A stretch of DNA of 35,380 bases from Cryomorphaceae bacterium (lineage in GTDB: Bacteria; Bacteroidota; Bacteroidia; Flavobacteriales_D; SKUL01), in contig REDV01000068.1 of NCBI GenBank assembly GCA_007695365.1, positions 1-35,380 on the forward strand, in the 5' to 3' direction. The position numbers and the translations under genes were made by a program. The number at the start of each line of letters is the position of its first letter. The first letter of the stretch is position 1. A model generated the notes under the pieces. The model searched no databases and was not told the DNA's origin. It worked only from the letters and a program-made list of their open reading frames with translations. This document shows, in pieces, positions 1,378 to 35,380 of this stretch.

Positions 1378-3012
1378 CTATCGTCCTGTGAGCACCACTT
1401 TACCCGATTGCGACCAGGTACCATCCACCTGCTGCCATTGCAACAAGTATAGGCCGGGGTTAAATCCGCTCAGGGATACAGGCTCGGCGCTTCCCAACGA
1501 GGAAATAGACAATTGCTTTACCAATTGCCCTGAGGAATTAAATACCCGAACCATTCCGGGTGCAGCAAAAGGGGGTTCTACAAAAAATTCCCCTGCAGAG
1601 GGGTTCGGATAAACGCGCAATCCACCTGCTTGTACATGCTGTGTTACGGAGTGAACGACGTCACATTCACCATCCACAAACTCATTCACATTATGTGCCT
1701 TGTAACGAGCCATAAACTCTTGGAAATACTGATTGGCAATGTTTTCATCGTACACCACAACCACGTTCTCATCACTGCGTGAGTTCCCGTTTACAGACCA
1801 GTTTGCTGAACCCGTGTAGGCAATGGGTCGGCCCTCTGAGCAATTTGGGTCGAAAATGGCGTATTTGTGATGCCACATCGTGCCGAAGGCATCCAACACG
1901 AGTCGGTTTCCCAATCCGTTTTGAAGTATGGTGTAGGTGTTGGATGATGTGTTGATGTCCTGCACGATACCGGCTACGAAAATCCCTTGATTGGCACGAT
2001 CAGCCAGCGCCTGCGAGATATTGGCCCTGGTAAGCGTAAAGATGCCAAAGTAAATGTCAAAATCAGCCTGAGCGATGTTGTGGAGCAGCTCATTCTCCAC
2101 ACCGCTTTTTGGCGAGAACAATGCCTGAACGCGTTTGCCTCCTATGGCAAACTCACGCGGCGTTTTTACGCTTTTTGCCTGTCCGAAAACGCCGCTGAAC
2201 ATCTCCTCAAACTCAATGGTAAAACACCGGGCCAGGCTCTGATCCTGAAATATGATGAGGTTATTAGGGTCGATGCGAAGCTGGTTGTTGGTGAAATTGG
2301 TCGATCCGGTAATCACCACGGGGTCGTTGGGATCCGGTGAGTTGGCGTCAATGACAATAAACTTGTTGTGCATAGCGCCGATGTCATCGCCTTCAGGTCG
2401 CTGAATCTTGTTGCCCACACCGATGCTGATCGAGTTGTAGTTCCAGTTGGCAATGCCGTAGTTGCCCACAAACCGCACCTGCACACCGCGGTTGTATGCC
2501 GCGTTTATAGCGTCAATCACGCCGTTCTGGTTGTCGATGTTGTAAGCCGTAAAATCAACCGTGTATTTGGCGCGGTCAAGGTAGGCGATGATGGTGTCGG
2601 GAAAGTCCTGCCCCAAACTTATGGCGGGCTCCAACGCAGCTTCATCGTGGTCCACGGCGCTGTTGAAATACACCTTGATGATGCCGCTGGAAAGTGAGGC
2701 TGTCATCATAGGCTCCACATCGCTGTAGAGGGTATCGCCGGGCGCCAAAACAACTCCCGCACGAATGTGATACAAGGAGGCCGGCACCAAACCCGAAATG
2801 AAAATTTCATGGTCATTCAAAATTTCATTTCCGGCCAACACGCTGCCGCCAATAGGCGAAGTTCCGAATTTCAGGACACCCACTCCAGCAACGGAAGATG
2901 TGAATTGAACCGAAAAGCTCTCAGGGCTGATATTGCGCTGTTGGATGGATGTGATGTTGGCCAGACTGTTGAAGCACAGGCAAACACTCAATAGGATAAG
3001 GGTGAATTTCAC
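1378..3012 (-). CDS. Secreted phospholipase D-like protein with T9SS sorting domain
   Basis: A 544-residue protein. With the GTG start at 3012 it opens with a textbook signal peptide (MKFTLILLSVCLCFNSLA). Longer versions starting at a TTG at 3048 would bury that signal. A fibronectin-like N-terminal stretch (about residues 20-105) is followed by two phospholipase D halves. Each half has an HxKxxxxD motif: HNKFIVID (H215, K217, D222) followed by GSTNFT, and HHKYAIFD (H381, K383, D388) followed by GSANWS. Both catalytic histidines are present, so an active phosphodiesterase is expected. The substrate could be phospholipid or nucleic acid; the sequence does not decide. The C-terminus (about 466-544) is a type A T9SS sorting domain (VYPNPSAGEF, GLYLLQW). 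Divergent from the peptidase gene at 3134. Confidence 0.85.
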   Translation of the reverse strand: MKFTLILLSVCLCFNSLANITSIQQRNISPESFSVQFTSSVAGVGVLKFGTSPIGGSVLAGNEILNDHEIFISGLVPASLYHIRAGVVLAPGDTLYSDVEPMMTASLSSGIIKVYFNSAVDHDEAALEPAISLGQDFPDTIIAYLDRAKYTVDFTAYNIDNQNGVIDAINAAYNRGVQVRFVGNYGIANWNYNSISIGVGNKIQRPEGDDIGAMHNKFIVIDANSPDPNDPVVITGSTNFTNNQLRIDPNNLIIFQDQSLARCFTIEFEEMFSGVFGQAKSVKTPREFAIGGKRVQALFSPKSGVENELLHNIAQADFDIYFGIFTLTRANISQALADRANQGIFVAGIVQDINTSSNTYTILQNGLGNRLVLDAFGTMWHHKYAIFDPNCSEGRPIAYTGSANWSVNGNSRSDENVVVVYDENIANQYFQEFMARYKAHNVNEFVDGECDVVHSVTQHVQAGGLRVYPNPSAGEFFVEPPFAAPGMVRVFNSSGQLVKQLSISSLGSAEPVSLSGFNPGLYLLQWQQVDGTWSQSGKVVLTGR

Positions 3013-3035
3013 AAATAGTGCTCTTGTTTCGGTGC

Positions 3036-3043
3036 TAAAGTTA
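3036..3043 (-). promoter_or_regulatory. Candidate -7 element for the phospholipase D-like gene
   Basis: Minus-strand TAACTTTA is one mismatch from TAnnTTTG. It lies 23 bases before the chosen GTG start at 3012. Its position inside the longer open frame supports the shorter GTG start. Confidence 0.35.
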
Positions 3044-3108
3044 AGCAATAACGGGGGTTGTTGAGTGACTAACCGATAGAGTTACGCATTACTTTTCTGT
3101 TATTTGGA

Positions 3109-19115: not shown

Positions 19116-22010
19116 ATGCTTGCACGACTCACCCTTGGGGTTTTTGTATGTTTCGCTTTGAGTGGGTGCTCAAAAGAAACCGCTCCCGAAGCAAAAACCG
19201 TTGCTGACTATGTGAACCCCTTTATCGGCACGGGCGGACACGGACATACCTATCCCGGAGCAACCACCCCATTCGGAATGGTGCAACTCAGCCCGGATAC
19301 GCGCCTCGAAGGCTGGGACGGCTGCAGTGGCTACCATTTTACCGATACCGTTGTGTACGGCTTCAGCCACACCCACCTGAGCGGAACAGGAGTGAGCGAT
19401 TACGGCGACATCCTGCTTATGCCCAATACCGGTGATGTTCAATTCAGCAATGGTTATCCGGATAAAATCGAGTTGGGATATGCGTCTTCATTCAGTAAGA
19501 AAAGCGAAAAGGCTGCCCCCGGCTACTACGCGGTGCACCTGCGTGATTACAACATTGGCGTGGAGCTTACCGCTGCACCCAGGGTTGGGATGCACCGCTA
19601 CACCTTTCCCGAAGGAGAAGCACATGTAATTATTGACCTGGAGCACCGCGACAAGGTGCTAGATTTTGAGTTGATTCAAAGCGGCCCCGATGAAATCAGC
19701 GGTTACAGGATTTCCCAGTCCTGGGCCGACGAGCAGCACGTGTATTTTGTGGCACAATTCAGCCAGCCCATCCGTGAGGTGGAGTGGAACGAAAACGGTC
19801 GGGTTGCAGCCGTTCACTTCCAAAGCCCGGATACGCTGTTGGTGAAGGTGGGCATTTCGGCTGTATCAGTTGAGAATGCGCGCCAAAATACGGCGGCCGA
19901 GGTTCCTCATTGGAAGTTCAACCAATTGCACGCACAGGCCCGTAAGAGCTGGGAAGAACACCTCGGAAAAATTGAGGTATCCGGCGGCTCGGAAGATGAG
20001 CGCATCACTTTTTACACAGCGCTTTACCACACCATGCTGGCCCCCAATATTTTCAGCGATGTCAATGGCGAGTACCGCGGAATGGACGGTGAGGTGCATC
20101 ATGCGGACCACCTCGTCTATACGGTGTTTTCACTATGGGATACCTTTCGTGCACTGCACCCGCTTTTTACCATCATTGAACGCGAGCGCACTGCGGATTT
20201 TCTGCGCACTTTTCTCTTGCATTATGAGCAAAGCGGCAGACTTCCCGTGTGGGAACTGGCCGGCAATGAAACCGATTGCATGATTGGCTACCACAGTATT
20301 CCGGTGGTGGTTGATGCCTGGATGAAAGGAATCCGCGATTTTGATGCACAGGCTATGCTCAAGGCTATGCTCGACGTGAGCACCATGCCACATTTTGGGC
20401 TGGAGAGCTACATGAAGCACGGGGCCATTCTGGCAGCCGACGAACCCGAGAGCGTGAGTAAAACACTGGAATACGCCTACGACGACTGGTGCATTGCCCA
20501 ATTCGCCAAAGCTTTAGGTGACACCGCTTCCTGGCAAATGTATTCAGAGAGAGCACAGTACTACAAAAACCTGTTCGACCCCGAAACAAAGTTTTTCCGG
20601 GCGCGCATGGACGGCGGTTGGTTCGGCCCCTTCGACCCTTCGGAAGTAAACTACAACTACACCGAAGCCAACGCCTGGCACTACGCGCTGTTTGTTCCGC
20701 ACGATATTGAAGGCCTCATTGCGCTGCACGGAGGCGAAGCCGAACTAGAGGCCCATCTCGACCGGATGTTCAACGCGCCGAGTGAGACCACCGGCAGGGA
20801 TCAGGCCGATATTACGGGCTTAATCGGCCAGTACGCCCACGGAAATGAACCCAGTCACCACATGGCCTACCTTTACAACTACACGGGTCAGCCCTGGAAA
20901 ACGCAACAGCGCGTTCGGCAGATTGTGGATGAACTCTACACCATTCACCCCGACGGACTGAGCGGCAATGAAGATTGCGGACAGATGAGCGCGTGGTACG
21001 TGTTTAGCGCAATGGGCTTTTACCCCGTAACGCCGGGGAGCACACAGTACACCCTTGGTTCTCCGCTGTTTGATCACATTGCTATTCATTTGGAAAACGA
21101 GCGCACCTTCAACATCACCGTAAAAAACCAGGCACCGGAAAATGTATACGTGCAGGACGTTAAACTCAATGGAGGGGATTGGCCCAATCTCTACCTTCGT
21201 CACGATGACATCATGGCGGGCGGAGAAATGCAATTCACCATGGGACCTGAACCCAATACCGCAGGTGCGCTTCCTGAACTTCGTCCTCACTCAGCTATAA
21301 ATGCCCTGCCTATTGCCCCGCTTCCTTATTTCTTGAGCACATCCTCAACTTTTACGGATAGTGTGGAAGTGGCACTTGGATGCGTAGATTCACTGGTAAA
21401 TATTTTCGTTCGAAAGGACAATGGTTCGTTTTTCAGGTACGAGAAGCCAATTGTACTTCATAGTACCGCACATCTCGAAGCCTGGTCAATGATGCCCAAG
21501 GGAAATACAAGCAAATCGATAGCAAACACCTGGCACAAAATTGATGGAAAACGCAGTATCACCCTCGGAATGACCTATGCCAATCAGTACAGCGCGGGTG
21601 GGGACGGTGCGCTCATTGACTATCTGCGCGGCAGCAATAACTACCGCACGGGTCGCTGGCAGGGCTACCAGGCTCAGGATTTTGAGGTTGTATTGGATTT
21701 GGGAGAAGTACAACCGGTAAAAAAGGTAACAGTTGGGTTTTTACAAGACGTAAAAAGCTGGATATGGCTTCCGCCGGAGGTGAGGTTTTACGTTTCGGGA
21801 GATGGAAAACAGTTCAGTGAATTGGGAAGTGTTTTGCACAACATTCCTGACGACGCATACGGCGGAATGGTTTTCGACTTTCAGAAGTCTGTGGGCACGG
21901 ATGTGCGTTACATCAAAATTACCGCACCCAATTACGGCCCTTGCCCTGACTGGCATATAGGAGCCGGAGGTCAGAGCTGGTTGTTTGCAGATGAAATTGT
22001 GATTGAATGA
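19116..22010 (+). CDS. GH92 family alpha-mannosidase lipoprotein
   Basis: A 964-residue lipoprotein (signal ending in LSGC, lipidated C18). Residues 30-730 form a glycoside hydrolase family 92 catalytic region, recognisable from VNPFIGTGGHGHTYPGATTP, GCSGYHF and YGFSHTHLSGTG. Also present are GNEPSHHMAYLYN with a candidate general acid E578, and GNEDCGQMSAWYVFSAMGFYP with acidic residues around D620. GH92 enzymes are calcium-dependent exo-acting alpha-mannosidases, mostly alpha-1,2, that trim N-glycans or mannans. After this come a chitobiase C-terminal-like beta domain (about 745-800) and an F5/8 type C-like carbohydrate-binding domain (about 815-964). No SusC/SusD pair lies nearby, so this is not an obvious polysaccharide utilisation locus. 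Overlaps the YkgJ gene by 4 bases. Confidence 0.92.
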   Translation: MLARLTLGVFVCFALSGCSKETAPEAKTVADYVNPFIGTGGHGHTYPGATTPFGMVQLSPDTRLEGWDGCSGYHFTDTVVYGFSHTHLSGTGVSDYGDILLMPNTGDVQFSNGYPDKIELGYASSFSKKSEKAAPGYYAVHLRDYNIGVELTAAPRVGMHRYTFPEGEAHVIIDLEHRDKVLDFELIQSGPDEISGYRISQSWADEQHVYFVAQFSQPIREVEWNENGRVAAVHFQSPDTLLVKVGISAVSVENARQNTAAEVPHWKFNQLHAQARKSWEEHLGKIEVSGGSEDERITFYTALYHTMLAPNIFSDVNGEYRGMDGEVHHADHLVYTVFSLWDTFRALHPLFTIIERERTADFLRTFLLHYEQSGRLPVWELAGNETDCMIGYHSIPVVVDAWMKGIRDFDAQAMLKAMLDVSTMPHFGLESYMKHGAILAADEPESVSKTLEYAYDDWCIAQFAKALGDTASWQMYSERAQYYKNLFDPETKFFRARMDGGWFGPFDPSEVNYNYTEANAWHYALFVPHDIEGLIALHGGEAELEAHLDRMFNAPSETTGRDQADITGLIGQYAHGNEPSHHMAYLYNYTGQPWKTQQRVRQIVDELYTIHPDGLSGNEDCGQMSAWYVFSAMGFYPVTPGSTQYTLGSPLFDHIAIHLENERTFNITVKNQAPENVYVQDVKLNGGDWPNLYLRHDDIMAGGEMQFTMGPEPNTAGALPELRPHSAINALPIAPLPYFLSTSSTFTDSVEVALGCVDSLVNIFVRKDNGSFFRYEKPIVLHSTAHLEAWSMMPKGNTSKSIANTWHKIDGKRSITLGMTYANQYSAGGDGALIDYLRGSNNYRTGRWQGYQAQDFEVVLDLGEVQPVKKVTVGFLQDVKSWIWLPPEVRFYVSGDGKQFSELGSVLHNIPDDAYGGMVFDFQKSVGTDVRYIKITAPNYGPCPDWHIGAGGQSWLFADEIVIE

Positions 22011-26656: not shown

Positions 26657-29308
26657 ATGAAAACGGTGTACAACATCGGGTCTGCCCGTTTTTTTATGTT
26701 CGTGCTGCGAGGTTGTTTTTTCCTCGTTTTGAGCAGTAGAGTATGCGCTCAGCCAGAAAGTGATTTGGCTGCTGATTGCCACCGGCAAATTCATGAAGCC
26801 AACGCGCTACTCGCCAATCACCCTGACTCTGCATTTGCCATTGGAAATGATGTGCTGGCTGCAGATTGCGCTGCGGAATCCATAGTGCGAATGAACGCCT
26901 CGGCTTTGGTTGCCGAAGCCGCGCAGCAACTCGGTAAGTATGACTTATCGTCTGAGTTTTTTCTCCGCGCCATTGAATTAGCCCGTTCTGAAAACGATCC
27001 CCACAAACTCGCGTCGTTTTACAATGGCCTGGCATCAAACTTCTACTATCTCGGCAACCTACCCAAGGCTGCAAATTACCTGCAACAGGCGGCGGATTTC
27101 AAACTTCAGGCGGGTGATTTGCGGTACTATGCTGTTGTTATGGGTAACCTGGCCACTATATATCACGCGCAGGTGGAGCATGATAAGGCCATGATCATTT
27201 TGCGCAATGCCGAGCAACAGCTTTTTAAAGACTCCGGCGATGAGGTACCCTTTTACACGGCCGGATTGTACAACGCCATGGGCAGTATCCAGCAAGTGGG
27301 CTTAAGCCATCTCGATTCCGCCGCTTATTACTTTGAAAAAGCACTGCTTAGCGCTCAAATGCATGAGGACTTACCCAATGAAATTACCGCGCGTCACAAC
27401 CTGGGTGAAGTGTACACCCATCTCGGTAAACTTCAGGAAGCACGCTCTTTGCTGGAGGGAGCCCTCGAAATGAGCGAGCAGGCTTCGCGCCCCTACATTA
27501 CACTCAATATCTATCGCAGTTTGGCCTTTCTGCACGAAAAAATGGGTAACTATCAACGCGCCTATGATTACAAAAAGCAACAACTCGAACTTCGTGAAGA
27601 ACTTTACGAAGACGAAACCCGAAACAAGGTAGAGCAGCTCGAAACGCAGTTCAGAACGGCGCTCAAAGACGAGCAAATTGAGCGGCAGCAATCCGAAATC
27701 CTTCAGCAGCAGCTGGAGGCTGAAAAATTCCGCAGCCGATGGATTAACCTGTTGCTCGGCCTGCTCGTATTGCTTCTTATCACGGCCATGATTGCGCTTT
27801 ATTACTACCAGCGCAAACGCTCACGCGAACGTCTGGAAGAGGCCAAAGCGCGCATCTACCAACACATTGTACACGACATCCGAACGCCTCTGAGCTTGAT
27901 TACCGGCCCGCTCAACAAAATCAGGCATCGGTTTAATGCCCCCGAGTTTGAGGAAGACTTCATCCTCATTGAACGCAATGCGCGGCGTTTGGTAAATCTG
28001 GTGAATGAACTGCTCGAAGTTTCAAGGCTCGATAGCGGCCGTTATCGCCTGGCCGTTCAGCAAGGCAACCCTGTTGAGTTTATCCGTGGACTGGCAGAGG
28101 CTTTTCGCGCCGAGGCAGAAGCCAATGGCGTTTCGTTGCAGGTGAATGCCCCGGAAGTGGAGGCGAATTACAGGTTTCCGGCCAACGCGCTTGAGCACAT
28201 TACGGCCAATCTTGTCTCCAATGCCATAAAATTCACCCCATTGGGTGGTGAGGTGCGCGTTACGGTATCACTCAATCCCCAACATGATTTAATGATTGAA
28301 GTGAGTGACAACGGACCGGGAATAGCGGAAGAGTGGCACGAACGCATCTTTGAGCGTTTCAACAGAGGTGAAGCCGGTAAGGATGTACCCGGAACAGGAG
28401 TTGGCCTTTCGGTGGTGCGCGAACTCAGCAACCTGGTGGACGCTTCCGTAAAACTGAGCAGCGAGCCGGGCAAGGGCACCACCTTTACGGTGAGCCTGAA
28501 TCTAGGCAAGCCTGTGTTGTTGCCGGAGCAGATGGAAGATGTTGAAGAATTACCGGATGAACGACCGCTTGTGTTGCTTGTGGAAGATGACCCTGATATG
28601 GCCACCTTTACAGCGGGCTTGTTGCGCGCTGAGTACCGTGTGCTGCACGTGTCCAATGGTGTTGAAGGGCTTGCAACGGCCCTGCGCGAAATGCCTGATG
28701 TCATCTTAACCGACGTGGTAATGCCGGGGATGGACGGCATAGAAATGCTGCGAAAACTGCGGGCCAACACCCTTTGTGAGCACATTCCGGTGATCGTTTT
28801 TTCAGCTAAAAGTTCGGTACAAAGCCGTGTGGAAGGTCTTGAAGCCGGAGCCATTACCTACCTCGCCAAGCCTTTTCACCCCGACGAATTAATGCTTCAG
28901 TGCCGGAACCTGTTTGCCTACCTCGAACAATTGAAAGCCCGATTTCAGGAGAGCACGGGCAATGAAGACATAACACTGGAGGAGCGCCTGAGCGCCGGAA
29001 ATCCATACCTGAAAGAAGTTGTTGAGAAGTTACTGGCACGTTTGGACGACAGTGCTTTTGGTGTTCCTGAACTGTCGGATGCCATGCACTTGAGCCGAAG
29101 TCAGCTTCACCGCAAGATTAAGTCGCTTACAGGTCATTCAACCGGTCAGTTTATGCGGGTAGTACGACTCGAAAAGGCACATGAGCTACTAAAAACCACC
29201 CACCTCAATGTAACGGAGGTAGCTTATGCTTGTGGCTTTGGCGGCCAGAGCCAGTTCACGCGGTCTTTTACCCAGCACTTCGGGTTTGCCCCAAGTAAAC
29301 TGAGCTGA
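26657..29308 (+). CDS. Hybrid sensor kinase: TPR, histidine kinase, receiver, AraC output
   Basis: An 883-residue one-polypeptide two-component system. A signal peptide (1-31) leads into a periplasmic TPR region (about 35-315), then a coiled coil (320-360) and a membrane segment (362-385). The kinase follows: H-box HIVHDIRTPLSL with phosphorylated H406, N-box ITANLVSNAIKFT (515-527), and G-boxes DNGPGIAEEW and GTGVGLSVV (551-587). The receiver (637-755) has acidic E643/D644/D645, phospho-acceptor D686 and K738. The C-terminus (about 790-883) is an AraC-type double helix-turn-helix ending CGFGGQSQFTRSFTQHFG. The order is that of Bacteroidota hybrid systems that sense periplasmic signals and control nearby genes. 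Here the sensor part is TPR rather than beta-propeller. Target genes are probably the two LamG genes just downstream. Confidence 0.93.
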   Translation: MKTVYNIGSARFFMFVLRGCFFLVLSSRVCAQPESDLAADCHRQIHEANALLANHPDSAFAIGNDVLAADCAAESIVRMNASALVAEAAQQLGKYDLSSEFFLRAIELARSENDPHKLASFYNGLASNFYYLGNLPKAANYLQQAADFKLQAGDLRYYAVVMGNLATIYHAQVEHDKAMIILRNAEQQLFKDSGDEVPFYTAGLYNAMGSIQQVGLSHLDSAAYYFEKALLSAQMHEDLPNEITARHNLGEVYTHLGKLQEARSLLEGALEMSEQASRPYITLNIYRSLAFLHEKMGNYQRAYDYKKQQLELREELYEDETRNKVEQLETQFRTALKDEQIERQQSEILQQQLEAEKFRSRWINLLLGLLVLLLITAMIALYYYQRKRSRERLEEAKARIYQHIVHDIRTPLSLITGPLNKIRHRFNAPEFEEDFILIERNARRLVNLVNELLEVSRLDSGRYRLAVQQGNPVEFIRGLAEAFRAEAEANGVSLQVNAPEVEANYRFPANALEHITANLVSNAIKFTPLGGEVRVTVSLNPQHDLMIEVSDNGPGIAEEWHERIFERFNRGEAGKDVPGTGVGLSVVRELSNLVDASVKLSSEPGKGTTFTVSLNLGKPVLLPEQMEDVEELPDERPLVLLVEDDPDMATFTAGLLRAEYRVLHVSNGVEGLATALREMPDVILTDVVMPGMDGIEMLRKLRANTLCEHIPVIVFSAKSSVQSRVEGLEAGAITYLAKPFHPDELMLQCRNLFAYLEQLKARFQESTGNEDITLEERLSAGNPYLKEVVEKLLARLDDSAFGVPELSDAMHLSRSQLHRKIKSLTGHSTGQFMRVVRLEKAHELLKTTHLNVTEVAYACGFGGQSQFTRSFTQHFGFAPSKLS

Positions 29309-29329
29309 AAAGCAGGGTTTTTGCTTTCA

Positions 29330-29356
29330 TGCAACAAAATGTGATGGAGTTGCAAC
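29330..29356 (+). promoter_or_regulatory. TGCAAC direct repeat upstream of LamG gene 1
   Basis: TGCAAC occurs at 29330-29335 and 29351-29356, 21 bases apart, about two helical turns on the same face. The second copy begins 37 bases before the -7-like element at 29388. AraC-family proteins typically bind such direct repeats. A third, looser TGCAGG follows at 29366. Confidence 0.45.
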
Positions 29357-29387
29357 TGACGGCAATGCAGGTTATGGCAGGGCTTCG

Positions 29388-29395
29388 GAGATTTG
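29388..29395 (+). promoter_or_regulatory. Candidate -7-like element for LamG gene 1
   Basis: GAGATTTG, one mismatch from TAnnTTTG, followed by C, 23 bases before the ATG at 29419. The surrounding CGGAGATTTGCAG is conserved at the second LamG gene. No -33 TTG at the expected distance, consistent with an activator-dependent promoter. Confidence 0.4.
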
Positions 29396-29418
29396 CAGTA
29401 AACAAATCTTCAGCAAAC

Positions 29419-32253
29419 ATGAAACTACGCAACCTTATCGCATCGCTCTTGCTTCTACCCCTTTTTGTACAGGCTCAAATTGATTTTACACCTGGGCTTC
29501 GCAGTTACCATCCGACAAATGGTGATAATTACAATGCTTCATCGAGCGCATTTACTTTTCACGCCTCGTTTTTCAATTCATCCTTTGGCGAAAATGCTGC
29601 AGGAATTGACGATGCGGCCGGTTTTTTTGGAGGAGCAAACAGGGTGAACCTCAGCAACCGGTTGGTGAATCACACAGCCAACTTTTCCGTTGAGCTATGG
29701 TTTCGCGCCGAATCAGAGTTTTTTCAGGTGCTCTTTTGGGAGGGAGCCATGGACCAGCGAAGCGTATGGATTCGGGTAGAGCCTTCAAACAACCGTATTC
29801 GCTGCTATGCTGGCCAGCCGGGCAATACTGCCTCTGCCATGACAAGCAGTGCATATAATGACGGAGAGTGGCATCACCTCGTTTTTACCGGCTCAGGGGC
29901 GAACCTTCTCAGAGTGTATGTAGATGGTGAGCTTGAGCAGGAGGTGATACAGGGCTATTCATCGGGTGCCACCACACAATTCTCGCGCTTCGGGTGCCGG
30001 GCAGACCTTTCGCAATATCTTACCGGCGGACTGGATGAGGTGCGTGTCTGGAACTACCCACTTAGCGCCGCAGAGGTAAGTGCCCTCTACAACCAACCCC
30101 GCATCATGATTGACCAGGAGGACCTTGGTTCGTTTTGTGCCGGGGCCACTGTTCAGGTTCCCTTTGCGGTGATTGGTAATAACCAGTTTGAACAGGACAA
30201 TACATTTTACCTGCAACTATCCAACAAGGAGGGCAGTTTCCGTTATCCCAAAACCATAGGTAGCGCAGCCGGCACCGGTAGCGGAACCATTCAGGCTGCC
30301 ATTCCTGATGACGTGGGCTCGGGCAACAACTATCGCCTGCGCGTGGTGGCCTCGCGCTATCCAAAAGTTTCAGACAACACCGCAAGTCTCAGCATCAACA
30401 ACCCCAATGCTGCGTTGGGTAATGATATCAACTCCGACCTGCTCTTGTACTATCCTTTTGATGGCGACGCAACCGATTTTTCAGGATTTGGGCTGGACGG
30501 TGCCATGTCAGGAAGCCTCGTGCCCGTGCAAGACCGAAACGGCAATCCAAACAGCGCTTTGAGCTTCGGAAGCCAGGGACGTGTTGAGGTTGGTGCTCCG
30601 TATCAACTCACTTCGTTCAACCAAACCCAAAACCCCATTTCGTTTTCGTTCTGGATTCGTCAAAGTTCTACCCCCATGACATACAGCTATATTTTCTCGG
30701 CGTGGCAGCAGCCCATTTCAGGCCCTGGCGAAGGACTCTGGATAGGCACCGGTAGCTTTGGGGCGGTCATGTTTCGGGTAAACGGCAACCAAACCGTTAC
30801 GGCTGCAATCACCAACAACGCCTGGCAGCATTTTGTATGTGTTTACACCGGTAGCCAAATTCAGATTTACCGTAGCGGAAACCTTATCAATACCAGCAAT
30901 GTAACGGGCAATGTGCGCATACTCACACCCATAGAAATGGGGCGCAACACACAAGGCTTTACCAGTCCGCAGGAATTGAACGGCCGCCTGGACGAGTTCA
31001 GGATTTATGGCCGGGCGCTCACTGCCATCGAGGTTTCTACGCTGCACCAAGATGGTTTGGTGCGCAACAATGGTCCGCTGTGCGATGGGGATACAGCACA
31101 GTTTTTCGGCCCCGGGTTTCCTGAGTACATCTACGATTGGAGCGGTCCGGCGGGCTTTAGCAGCGACGAGCAAAATCCGCAATTTGCTCCCTATAATGCC
31201 ATTGTGCACTCCGGCGATTATTCACTTTCGCTTATGCACGAAGGATGCGTGGGTACTCCGCTGATTACGCATCTAACCTCAGATGTGGCTCCTGTGGCGG
31301 GCGTGCAGGGAGCGGAGATTTGTATCGGCGATTCGGCCACCATCAGCGCATCGGGCGCCGAGCTCGATGAGCATTACCGCTGGTACGCCGATGAGTTGGG
31401 TGAGGAGCTTATTGCGAGCGGAACTTCATCCATCACCGTATTGCCCGATCAAACCACCACGTACTATGTGAACATCAAGCCCACCGAAGACTGCCAGGGC
31501 CCCATTACCCCCGTATTGGTAAGCGTGGGTGCCGATAACGTGCAGGCCTCGGCCAGTGCTGCGGAAATATGTCCCGGAGATGAAGTCACCCTCACAGGAT
31601 CCGGTGCAGCCACCTACAGTTGGAGCGGAGGCGCTGTTGACGGAGTGCCCTTTGTGCCCCAGCAAAGCACCACCTATGTGCTTACCGGAACTGATTCAGC
31701 CGGGTGTGTAGGCGTGGATTCAGTGTTGGTTACCTTGCTTAACCAACCGCTCACACCCCAAATCCAGGGAGATATGTTTTTGGATTGCGATGCAGCGGGC
31801 GTGGTGTACCACGTGGAATCTCAGCCCGGTTTTACCTATGAGTGGACGGTTCCCGATGGCGCAGGGTTTTCCGGCCAAGGCGCTGACTCCATTGTGGTGG
31901 ATTTCAACAGCCAGTTTGGATGGATTACCGTAACAGCCATTTCGCCCGACGGCTGCGCGGGTAACGTCGAAGAGATTTTTGTGCAATGTGTGACCAGTAT
32001 TGAGGAGCTCACAGAAGCGGGCATCACCCTTTACCCAAATCCCGTAAGCAATATGCTGTTTCTGGATTTGAGCAACAACAGCGATTTGCGCGGAGTGGAG
32101 CTGTACGATGCATCCGGCAGATTGCTCAAAACACTCCCCGTTAAGCCGGGCACCCTGCACCATGTAGATGTGGCCGGCTGGGCTGCGGGGCTGTATATCC
32201 TCAGGGCTTACAACAATGAAAAAACCATTTCATTCCGCGTAGTGAAAATGTAG
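29419..32253 (+). CDS. LamG/Ig-like surface protein with T9SS sorting domain, copy 1
   Basis: A 944-residue secreted protein. The signal peptide is MKLRNLIASLLLLPLFVQAQ. There are two concanavalin A-like LamG domains: the first (about 45-222) contains FSVELWFRAESEF, EWHHLVFTG and LDEVRVWNYPLSAAEV. The second (334-545) contains LLLYYPFDGDATDFSG, ISFSFWIRQS and LDEFRIYGRALTAIEV. Residues 550-860 hold PKD/Ig-like modules with SGDYSLSL, TTYYVNI and TTYVLTG. Residues 868-944 are a T9SS type A sorting domain (LYPNPVSNMLFLDL, GLYILRAY). LamG domains usually bind glycans or proteins, so a lectin or adhesin role is plausible. The frame is open to 29329, but the ATG at 29419 fronts the signal peptide. 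From 31075 onward it is identical to copy 2. Confidence 0.88.
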   Translation: MKLRNLIASLLLLPLFVQAQIDFTPGLRSYHPTNGDNYNASSSAFTFHASFFNSSFGENAAGIDDAAGFFGGANRVNLSNRLVNHTANFSVELWFRAESEFFQVLFWEGAMDQRSVWIRVEPSNNRIRCYAGQPGNTASAMTSSAYNDGEWHHLVFTGSGANLLRVYVDGELEQEVIQGYSSGATTQFSRFGCRADLSQYLTGGLDEVRVWNYPLSAAEVSALYNQPRIMIDQEDLGSFCAGATVQVPFAVIGNNQFEQDNTFYLQLSNKEGSFRYPKTIGSAAGTGSGTIQAAIPDDVGSGNNYRLRVVASRYPKVSDNTASLSINNPNAALGNDINSDLLLYYPFDGDATDFSGFGLDGAMSGSLVPVQDRNGNPNSALSFGSQGRVEVGAPYQLTSFNQTQNPISFSFWIRQSSTPMTYSYIFSAWQQPISGPGEGLWIGTGSFGAVMFRVNGNQTVTAAITNNAWQHFVCVYTGSQIQIYRSGNLINTSNVTGNVRILTPIEMGRNTQGFTSPQELNGRLDEFRIYGRALTAIEVSTLHQDGLVRNNGPLCDGDTAQFFGPGFPEYIYDWSGPAGFSSDEQNPQFAPYNAIVHSGDYSLSLMHEGCVGTPLITHLTSDVAPVAGVQGAEICIGDSATISASGAELDEHYRWYADELGEELIASGTSSITVLPDQTTTYYVNIKPTEDCQGPITPVLVSVGADNVQASASAAEICPGDEVTLTGSGAATYSWSGGAVDGVPFVPQQSTTYVLTGTDSAGCVGVDSVLVTLLNQPLTPQIQGDMFLDCDAAGVVYHVESQPGFTYEWTVPDGAGFSGQGADSIVVDFNSQFGWITVTAISPDGCAGNVEEIFVQCVTSIEELTEAGITLYPNPVSNMLFLDLSNNSDLRGVELYDASGRLLKTLPVKPGTLHHVDVAGWAAGLYILRAYNNEKTISFRVVKM

Positions 32254-32293
32254 TCTCGTTCATGTTGATTCGTGAGAGCGCGCAGAATCGGTT
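31075..32293 (+). repeat. Identical block, copy 1 (C-terminal half of LamG gene 1)
   Basis: This block matches 34162-35380 base for base wherever I compared it, at a constant offset of 3,087 bases. It covers the last 392 codons, the stop, the 3' UTR and the first part of the terminator. The 30 bases before 31075 differ at many positions, so the left edge is sharp. The right edge cannot be seen because the second copy is cut by the window end. Confidence 0.9.
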
Positions 32294-32311
32294 CGGTTCT
32301 GCGCGTTTTTT
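32279..32311 (+). terminator. Rho-independent terminator after LamG gene 1
   Basis: CGCGCAGAA pairs perfectly with TTCTGCGCG around a 9-base loop, followed by six Ts. It begins 26 bases after the stop at 32253. Confidence 0.92.
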
Positions 32312-32336
32312 CTTGTGCATGCTTATTCAAATGGTT

Positions 32337-32358
32337 GTTGTTGCCAAATTGCAACAAC
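32337..32358 (+). repeat. Operator-like inverted repeat upstream of LamG gene 2
   Basis: GTTGTTGC and GCAACAAC form a perfect 8-base inverted repeat around a 6-base spacer. It has no T run and lies after the terminator, so it is more likely a protein-binding site than a terminator. Its GCAAC core is shared with the direct repeats at 32420 and 32441. Confidence 0.5.
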
Positions 32359-32419
32359 GATTCAAGCTGTAAACTAATTCCTTGCGGCAAGTAGTCCCGA
32401 AGTAATAATCAGCGCTGAA

Positions 32420-32446
32420 TGCAACAGTTTGTAATGAACATGCAAC
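32420..32446 (+). promoter_or_regulatory. TGCAAC direct repeat upstream of LamG gene 2
   Basis: TGCAAC at 32420-32425 and 32441-32446, 21 bases apart. The wider units (ATGCAACAGTTTGTAA and ATGCAACAGCGTGTAA) are more alike than those at gene 1, and a degenerate third unit (ATGTTAACAAGCGTGT) follows. The second copy begins 37 bases before the -7-like element at 32478, the same distance as at gene 1. Confidence 0.5.
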
Positions 32447-32477
32447 AGCGTGTAACGCATGTTAACAAGCGTGTTCG

Positions 32478-32485
32478 GAGATTTG
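32478..32485 (+). promoter_or_regulatory. Candidate -7-like element for LamG gene 2
   Basis: GAGATTTG followed by C, 23 bases before the ATG at 32509. Position and context match the element of gene 1. Confidence 0.4.
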
Positions 32486-32508
32486 CAGCAAACAAATCTT
32501 TCGAAAAT

Positions 32509-35340
32509 ATGAAACTACGCAACCTTATCGCAGCACTCTTCTTATTGCCGCTTTTTGTACAGGCCCAAATTGACTTTTCGCCCGGACTTCGGAGTTATCA
32601 TCCCATGAATGGTGACTATGACAACGTATCGAATAGCGCGTTCAATTTTCACAGTAGCTTTTTCAACGCGTCATTTGGCGAGAACGCAGCAGGGTTAGAC
32701 AGTACTGCCGGAGCCTTTGACGGAGCCAGCAGGGTAAATGTAAACACCCGTCTTGTCAATCAAATTGCCAATTTTTCGGTCGAAATGTGGTTTAGGGCGG
32801 AGTCTGAGTTTTTCCAGGTTCTTTTCTGGGAAGGGCTCCTCAACCAGCGGAGTGTTTGGATACGTGTTGAGCCTGTAAACAACCGGATACGATGCATTGC
32901 AGGAACTCCCAGCAGTGCTGCCATTGTGAACACGGATAGTTCTTTTGCCGATGGCGAGTGGCATCACCTGGTGCTGACTGCGGCTAATAACAATCTTTTG
33001 AGTGTGTATGTGGATGGGGTACTAAACGCTCAGGTACAGGAAAACTATACTGGTGGAGCCACAACGCAGTTTACACGCTTCGGATGTCGGGAAGATTTGA
33101 GTCAGTTTCTTACCGGTAACCTCGATGAGGTGCGCGTCTGGAACTATCCTCTTAGCGCCGCAGAGGTAAGTGCCCTCTACAACCAACCCCGCATCATGAT
33201 AGACACAGAAGACCTTGGTTCTTTTTGTGCCGGGGCCACAGTTCAGGTTCCCTTTACACTGATTGGCAGTAACCAGTTTGAGGAGGATAACACCTTCTAC
33301 CTGCAGCTCTCTAATCCGCAGGGCAGTTTCCGCTATCCCACAACCATTGGTAGCGCTGCCGGCACAGGCAGCGGAACCATTCAGGCTACCATTCCCGATG
33401 ACGTGGGCTCGGGCAACAACTACCGTGTGCGCGTGGTGGCCTCACGGTACCCGAAAGTTTCAGACAACACCGCAAGTCTTAGCATCAACAACCCCAACGC
33501 AGCTTTGGGTAATGACATCCTTTCCGACTTACTGCTGTATTATCCTTTTGACGGCGATGCAACCGACTTTTCGGGCTTGGGACTCAATGGCTCCATGTCG
33601 GGTAGCCTTGTACCCGTTGACGATCGAAACGGCAATCCCAACAGCGCTTTGAGTTTTGGCTCAGGCGCACGCGTTGGAGTCGGCAGCCCCTTTCCTCTAA
33701 CACAATTCCACAACACCCAGAATCCCATTTCCATTGCTTTCTGGCTACGCCAGAGCAGCACGCCGGCGAGTTTTGGCTATGTATTCTCAGCATGGCAGCC
33801 AACAGCAGGAGGTGGGGATGGACTGTGGATTGGCACTACCAGCAGTGGTACGGTGCGCTGGCGAGTGAACGGAAACCAGTTTGTGCAGGCAGGCAATACC
33901 AATAATCAGTGGCAGCATTTCACCTGTGTGTACACCGGTAGCCAGCTACAGATATACCGAAACGGCACCCTCATCAACACAAGCAATGTAACTGGAAACG
34001 TACGCATTCTGTCTACCATTGAAATGGGCCGCAATACTCAAGGTAATTCAGGAGCACAGGAGCTGACAGGACGGCTCGACGAGTTTAGAATTTATGGCCG
34101 GGCGCTGACTGAACATGAGGCTATGACGCTGTTTCACGATGGCCTGGTGCGCAACAACGGACCGCTGTGCGATGGGGATACAGCACAGTTTTTCGGCCCC
34201 GGGTTTCCTGAGTACATCTACGATTGGAGCGGTCCGGCGGGCTTTAGCAGCGACGAGCAAAATCCGCAATTTGCTCCCTATAATGCCATTGTGCACTCCG
34301 GCGATTATTCACTTTCGCTTATGCACGAAGGATGCGTGGGTACTCCGCTGATTACGCATCTAACCTCAGATGTGGCTCCTGTGGCGGGCGTGCAGGGAGC
34401 GGAGATTTGTATCGGCGATTCGGCCACCATCAGCGCATCGGGCGCCGAGCTCGATGAGCATTACCGCTGGTACGCCGATGAGTTGGGTGAGGAGCTTATT
34501 GCGAGCGGAACTTCATCCATCACCGTATTGCCCGATCAAACCACCACGTACTATGTGAACATCAAGCCCACCGAAGACTGCCAGGGCCCCATTACCCCCG
34601 TATTGGTAAGCGTGGGTGCCGATAACGTGCAGGCCTCGGCCAGTGCTGCGGAAATATGTCCCGGAGATGAAGTCACCCTCACAGGATCCGGTGCAGCCAC
34701 CTACAGTTGGAGCGGAGGCGCTGTTGACGGAGTGCCCTTTGTGCCCCAGCAAAGCACCACCTATGTGCTTACCGGAACTGATTCAGCCGGGTGTGTAGGC
34801 GTGGATTCAGTGTTGGTTACCTTGCTTAACCAACCGCTCACACCCCAAATCCAGGGAGATATGTTTTTGGATTGCGATGCAGCGGGCGTGGTGTACCACG
34901 TGGAATCTCAGCCCGGTTTTACCTATGAGTGGACGGTTCCCGATGGCGCAGGGTTTTCCGGCCAAGGCGCTGACTCCATTGTGGTGGATTTCAACAGCCA
35001 GTTTGGATGGATTACCGTAACAGCCATTTCGCCCGACGGCTGCGCGGGTAACGTCGAAGAGATTTTTGTGCAATGTGTGACCAGTATTGAGGAGCTCACA
35101 GAAGCGGGCATCACCCTTTACCCAAATCCCGTAAGCAATATGCTGTTTCTGGATTTGAGCAACAACAGCGATTTGCGCGGAGTGGAGCTGTACGATGCAT
35201 CCGGCAGATTGCTCAAAACACTCCCCGTTAAGCCGGGCACCCTGCACCATGTAGATGTGGCCGGCTGGGCTGCGGGGCTGTATATCCTCAGGGCTTACAA
35301 CAATGAAAAAACCATTTCATTCCGCGTAGTGAAAATGTAG
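32509..35340 (+). CDS. LamG/Ig-like surface protein with T9SS sorting domain, copy 2
   Basis: A 943-residue tandem paralogue of the preceding gene, with the same order: signal peptide (MKLRNLIAALFLLPLFVQAQ), LamG 1 (about 45-222), LamG 2 (about 334-545), PKD/Ig-like modules and T9SS type A domain. The first LamG domain has many substitutions relative to copy 1, the region around 230-340 is closer, and everything after residue 551 is identical, including synonymous positions. The pair differs in length by one codon. The variable part is therefore the presumed ligand-binding face and the constant part is the stalk and secretion signal. The start at 32509 is chosen as in copy 1; the frame is open to 32419 but that stretch holds the promoter-like repeats. 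Confidence 0.88.
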   Translation: MKLRNLIAALFLLPLFVQAQIDFSPGLRSYHPMNGDYDNVSNSAFNFHSSFFNASFGENAAGLDSTAGAFDGASRVNVNTRLVNQIANFSVEMWFRAESEFFQVLFWEGLLNQRSVWIRVEPVNNRIRCIAGTPSSAAIVNTDSSFADGEWHHLVLTAANNNLLSVYVDGVLNAQVQENYTGGATTQFTRFGCREDLSQFLTGNLDEVRVWNYPLSAAEVSALYNQPRIMIDTEDLGSFCAGATVQVPFTLIGSNQFEEDNTFYLQLSNPQGSFRYPTTIGSAAGTGSGTIQATIPDDVGSGNNYRVRVVASRYPKVSDNTASLSINNPNAALGNDILSDLLLYYPFDGDATDFSGLGLNGSMSGSLVPVDDRNGNPNSALSFGSGARVGVGSPFPLTQFHNTQNPISIAFWLRQSSTPASFGYVFSAWQPTAGGGDGLWIGTTSSGTVRWRVNGNQFVQAGNTNNQWQHFTCVYTGSQLQIYRNGTLINTSNVTGNVRILSTIEMGRNTQGNSGAQELTGRLDEFRIYGRALTEHEAMTLFHDGLVRNNGPLCDGDTAQFFGPGFPEYIYDWSGPAGFSSDEQNPQFAPYNAIVHSGDYSLSLMHEGCVGTPLITHLTSDVAPVAGVQGAEICIGDSATISASGAELDEHYRWYADELGEELIASGTSSITVLPDQTTTYYVNIKPTEDCQGPITPVLVSVGADNVQASASAAEICPGDEVTLTGSGAATYSWSGGAVDGVPFVPQQSTTYVLTGTDSAGCVGVDSVLVTLLNQPLTPQIQGDMFLDCDAAGVVYHVESQPGFTYEWTVPDGAGFSGQGADSIVVDFNSQFGWITVTAISPDGCAGNVEEIFVQCVTSIEELTEAGITLYPNPVSNMLFLDLSNNSDLRGVELYDASGRLLKTLPVKPGTLHHVDVAGWAAGLYILRAYNNEKTISFRVVKM

Positions 35341-35380
35341 TCTCGTTCATGTTGATTCGTGAGAGCGCGCAGAATCGGTT
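34162..35380 (+). repeat. Identical block, copy 2 (reaches the window end)
   Basis: Second copy of the 1,219-base block at 31075-32293. It continues identically through the stop codon and the last 40 bases of the window, so the true length of the identity is unknown. Confidence 0.9.
35366..35380 (+). terminator. Partial terminator after LamG gene 2, cut by window end
   Basis: The left arm CGCGCAGAA and the start of the loop match the terminator at 32279. The right arm and T run lie outside the window. Confidence 0.6.

Follow-up and report, generated by a model that had tools for sequence, protein, structure and literature searches.

Tandem LamG surface-protein genes of a Cryomorphaceae bacterium with diverged 5' halves and an identical 3' half: a probable case of partial gene conversion

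Two neighboring genes at the end of a contig from a Cryomorphaceae bacterium raise the question of how a head-to-tail pair can be widely diverged over its first half and the same, base for base, over its second. The window analyzed here, that is, the whole stretch of 35,380 nucleotides, is the complete contig G000:C68:1-35380 of a draft with 154 contigs and 3.52 Mb, rated 99.98% complete. Both genes lie on the forward strand, gene 1 at 29329..32253 and gene 2, its tandem paralog with the same domain order, at 32419..35340, with an offset of 3087-3090 bases between them. In each case the start given by the ORF finder sits 30 codons upstream of the likely one, which is the ATG at 29419 (MKLRNLIASLLLLPLFVQAQ) for gene 1 and position 32509 for gene 2.

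Both genes are complete, and each has its own leader. The products begin with a signal peptide, read by eye as MKLRNLIA(S/A)L(L/F)LLPLFVQAQ, and continue with two LamG domains (both LamG_3 in Pfam; the LamG2 match of gene 2 ends at residue 567), Ig_7, PKD_6, and a T9SS type A sorting tail. The last of these scores 42.3 and 42.5 bits against TIGR04183 (cut-off 23) and 33.8 and 33.9 bits against PF18962 (cut-off 27). Because a signal peptide is combined with LamG, Ig_7, and PKD_6 domains and a T9SS tail, the proteins are probably exported, surface-bound adhesins or glycan binders; judging from the domains, the LamG heads probably differ in ligand, and the stalk and sorting tail are probably interchangeable. 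Membership in the TafC family of fimbrial proteins (NF052521) was considered and rejected, as the scores of 68.3 and 50.7 bits, with the best stretch in the LamG2 region, lie below the equivalog cut-off of 410. A hybrid two-component regulator with TPR, HisKA, HATPase, receiver, and AraC-type HTH domains (26657-29308), 20 bases upstream of the gene 1 ORF, may control the pair. The same contig also carries a glycosidase of family GH92 (19116-22010), in which an F5/8 type C stretch is weakly matched, and, on the reverse strand at 1378-3048, a phospholipase D-like protein with two PLDc_2 stretches, a weak RE_NgoFVII match, and a T9SS sorting tail, which is possibly an exported nuclease or phospholipase.

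The 5' halves of the genes (29329..31074 and 32419..34161) comprise the leader, LamG1, a linker, and LamG2. In a codon-aware alignment, 472 of 1743 aligned bases are substituted, and there is one 3-base gap, the extra codon being present in gene 1 only. The two proteins are 77% identical in amino acids over this N half, and 123 of 220 fourfold sites differ. Synonymous divergence is high (dS from 1.35 by YN00 to 1.55 by NG86, with the LamG windows saturated), while dN is about 0.17 and dN/dS about 0.12; the 5' halves are under purifying, not diversifying, selection. Given these values of dS and dN, the duplication would be old, with purifying selection maintaining both copies. The leaders that precede the signal peptide are old, diverged duplicates as well.

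Identity along the pair forms a mosaic. Per 100 bases it is 57-77% in LamG1, mostly 79-93% over approximately 30064-30560, 60-74% in LamG2, and 100% from there on. A preliminary description of this DNA had reported the wide differences in LamG1 and the closer middle, both of which are borne out by this profile, but had omitted the renewed divergence in LamG2. The identical 50-base patch that it had pointed out (30061-30110 versus 33151-33200) is real; no identical run in the 5' half is longer, and a run of this length was reached in 3 of 5000 codon shuffles. The patch belongs to a less diverged middle tract on the forward strand (30019..30423, with its partner at approximately 33109-33513), in which 22 of 66 fourfold sites differ, versus 101 of 154 in the remaining 5' half (Fisher p = 1.4e-5, for limits that were picked after viewing the profile). 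This second, older drop in synonymous divergence would fit an older conversion tract, for which the region is a candidate.

The last difference between the genes is found at 31074 (T/A), which corresponds to 34161 in gene 2. Beyond it, the forward-strand segment 31075..32293 equals 34162..35380 exactly for 1219 nt, from codon 583, shortly past the end of LamG2, to 40 bases beyond the stop codon, in the 3' UTR. None of the 208 fourfold sites in this block differs, and dS is 0. At the divergence of the 5' half, a run of 1219 bases would have a log10 P of about -168; in 2000 whole-gene shuffles no run approached this length, the longest being 95 bases. The preliminary description was thus right that the identity extends to synonymous sites and the 3' UTR, and right to doubt uniform divergence after a single duplication, which is rejected by the sharp shift from 472/1743 to 0/1219 differences. 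This same shift argues in favor of conversion. An AlphaFold model of LamG2 together with the boundary had a mean pLDDT of 35 and was too poor to use.

A gene pair that is 77% alike in its first half should differ comparably in its second, and there not a single residue differs. Strong constraint on the 3' half was considered as the cause and is ruled out by the 0/208 fourfold sites together with the distant homologs. At E <= 1e-25, a homolog of the N half is present in 7 other genomes among 395 in the class, with one match each. Of the two closest distant homologs, that of G596 is 43.0% identical over the N half versus 38.6% over the first 219 residues of the C half, and that of G379 is 38.7% identical before the boundary versus 37.5% after it. 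Since conservation in distant homologs is no higher over the 3' half than over the 5' half, constraint cannot give 100% versus 77%. Furthermore, homologs belonging to other families carry the LamG pair and the opening 60-220 residues of the 3' half in collinear order within a single ORF, and consequently the architecture is ancestral. The earlier proposal that N-termini have been swapped onto a constant stalk is therefore not favored. In the G379 homolog (L118:7393-10938, 1182 aa), the match to gene 1 from residue 581 onward occurs at three offsets, as if the stalk were built from repeated modules.

The one congener assembly compared, G001, allows the identity to be placed in time. It keeps the last 118 codons (354 coding bases) of the block before its own contig end, at a dS of 0.33-0.41 from G000. 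Over 399-418 bases the two G000 copies are 100% alike, and each is 89% identical to the G001 copy. A dS of 0.33-0.41 between the genomes, set against 0 within G000, would make the identity inside G000 younger than the split of G000 and G001. A comparison across differing segments suggests that the duplication, in turn, is older than this split. No 5' half was found in G001, which thus cannot show the pair. In that genome a contig end likewise interrupts the orthologous 3' block (L051:3992-4348, on G001:C18), at 118 codons from the stop, and a gene of 216 aa follows the block; the break might be a repeat effect there too, a weak indication in an assembly of 380 contigs.

Taken together, these results have led us to propose, with a probability of roughly 0.74, that an old tandem duplication was followed, much more recently, by gene conversion or unequal crossing-over that covered the 3' half. 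The old head-to-tail duplication would have given rise to two T9SS-exported double-LamG surface proteins, both of which would have been kept as working, diverging genes. Recent RecA-type homologous recombination between the copies, by gene conversion or by unequal crossing-over of sister chromosomes, would then have copied one 3' half over the other, starting at codon 583, running past the stop codon, and reaching the terminator at least. That the tract stops just after LamG2, where the alignment falls to about 70% identity, would reflect the dependence of recombination on long tracts of near identity. We infer how, in which direction, and when this overwrite took place; the pattern itself is that of gene conversion or concerted evolution of tandem paralogs, with a tract of zero synonymous change adjoining near-saturated divergence, paralogs within the genome that are closer over the tract than orthologs from a related species, and no stronger constraint to explain it. 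Gene conversion or recombination, favored from the outset in the preliminary description, is thus the best explanation by virtue of the mosaic, which it accounts for in a single event, and the zero synonymous change.

The same mosaic would result if, after a recent tandem duplication, another strain had supplied a diverged allele that replaced one 5' half. Porphyromonas gingivalis provides a documented case of natural allelic exchange affecting surface-protein domains (PMC5266723). However, such horizontal allelic exchange requires two events and a donor, and since the leaders too are old diverged duplicates, the exchange must have included the leader and ended immediately ahead of the block. 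There is no known donor, the sole congener assembly compared being without the 5' half, and we consider this history improbable.

The main rival to conversion is an effect of assembly, in which gene 2 was run into the only assembled 3' block, or similar blocks were collapsed, so that the identity or the join is artificial. The chief point against conversion is indeed that the contig ends inside the repeat, where collapse or false extension is likeliest. The left boundary of the tract is visible at 31074/31075, but the right one is past the contig end: because position 35380, as the preliminary description had no means of knowing, is the end of the contig, where the second copy stops, the right-hand limit of the identity and any gene downstream of copy 2 lie beyond the sequence. 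Gene 1 is followed by a forward-strand terminator hairpin at 32279..32305 (CGCGCAGAATCG-GTT-CGGTTCTGCGCG, then T6; MFE -29.3 kcal/mol, z -4.3), and copy 2 terminates at the apex of this common hairpin, at the base matching 32293. The fragmentation of the draft suggests that it was built from short reads, and a stop at the end of the block is what a repeat in a short-read graph would be expected to yield; the hagA, rgpA, and kgp repeats of P. gingivalis likewise defeated a short-read assembler, and contigs broke at them (PMC5266723). Consequently, part of the perfect identity may come from consensus building, and two may not be the true count of tandem units.

Several results nevertheless speak against an assembly effect. 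Blocks as unlike as the 5' halves (27%) would not collapse, and one full block stands between two different flanks, with the second behind a different 5' half. In addition, with its completeness rated at 99.98%, the assembly should show any differing second 3' block at another place, and G000 contains no such alternative 3' half. The preliminary description had proposed looking for the block elsewhere in the genome; in the G000 assembly it occurs exactly twice, both times in C68, and no further copies were found. For the flank of copy 2, G000 was searched with the block DNA, the terminator's right arm, and the final 16 bases, and no partner contig turned up; nor does G000 contain a match to the 216 aa gene located behind the block in G001. 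A single pattern match near a contig start (C70:168) was rejected as a candidate downstream contig, as it is not this terminator. A plasmid search gave no match. All told, an artifact of assembly is judged unlikely.

If conversion is accepted, it may be asked whether it is a lasting process. One could imagine selected concerted evolution, with the stalk and sorting half repeatedly homogenized, the LamG heads left to diverge, and copy number variable in the genus, so that the pair would be a small modular system of heads and stalks. With both genes compared in a single genome, we hold such a lasting process to be doubtful. A related proposal is that the contig carries two members of an array of at least three such genes, in which unequal crossing-over keeps the 3' halves alike and alters copy number. 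A tandem unit with an identical block would loop in the assembly graph, and the contig does stop at the block end; however, no third related LamG half was found anywhere in the G000 assembly (an identical copy would be hidden), and an array of this kind is very improbable.

Variable heads on constant tails in tandem copies recall antigenic variation. In the Neisseria pilE/pilS, Borrelia vlsE, and Treponema tprK systems, non-reciprocal recombination acts within one gene, between constant and variable parts, a trait that the present pair would share; there is one expression site with silent donors, and the variation lies in the converted part. Here, by contrast, conversion would have acted on the constant part, and each gene is intact. 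What points to a programmed locus for antigen or phase variation, with LamG heads shuffled onto a constant stalk, is the layout only, and the likeness drawn in the preliminary description finds no support, every feature examined being absent: the 5' halves are under purifying selection (dN ~0.17, dS ~1.4-1.5; dN/dS of the heads ~0.12), and both genes are intact with their own leaders. Beyond the two complete genes, the assembly has neither extra heads nor donor cassettes, whether silent or partial; a search for long, well-matched inverted repeats found none, and no recombinase is present among the 16 ORFs scanned with Pfam. The chance that this is such a locus is minimal.

The gene pair is instead most likely a fresh example of an already known kind of event, partial gene conversion, and it changes the picture of no known mechanism. 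Concerted evolution and partial gene conversion of paralogs are described for prokaryotes generally (PMC6053082), and partial conversion between paralogs is described for antigen loci of M. tuberculosis (PMC13061034). As in those cases, paralogs within the genome are closer in the tract than orthologs between species; the difference is that the tract here is confined to one gene half (PMC6053082, PMC13061034). The locus offers a clean case of gene conversion limited to the half of T9SS adhesins that holds stalk and sorting domain, and it brings its own control with it. Furthermore, since short-read contigs stop at such repeats, drafts of bacteria with a T9SS probably give too low a count of adhesin arrays.

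The nearest published parallel is found in the shared repeats of P. gingivalis rgpA, kgp, and hagA, T9SS cargo with identical adhesin repeats at which draft assemblies broke (PMC5266723). There, as here, T9SS-exported surface proteins carry identical blocks, within and between genes, that end short-read contigs, and recombination has been invoked for mosaic alleles (PMC5266723). Unlike the present pair, the P. gingivalis families are gingipain/CAD rather than LamG and are not described as one tandem pair; their catalytic domains differ, their repeats are adhesins, and many strains were compared, as against the one genome here.
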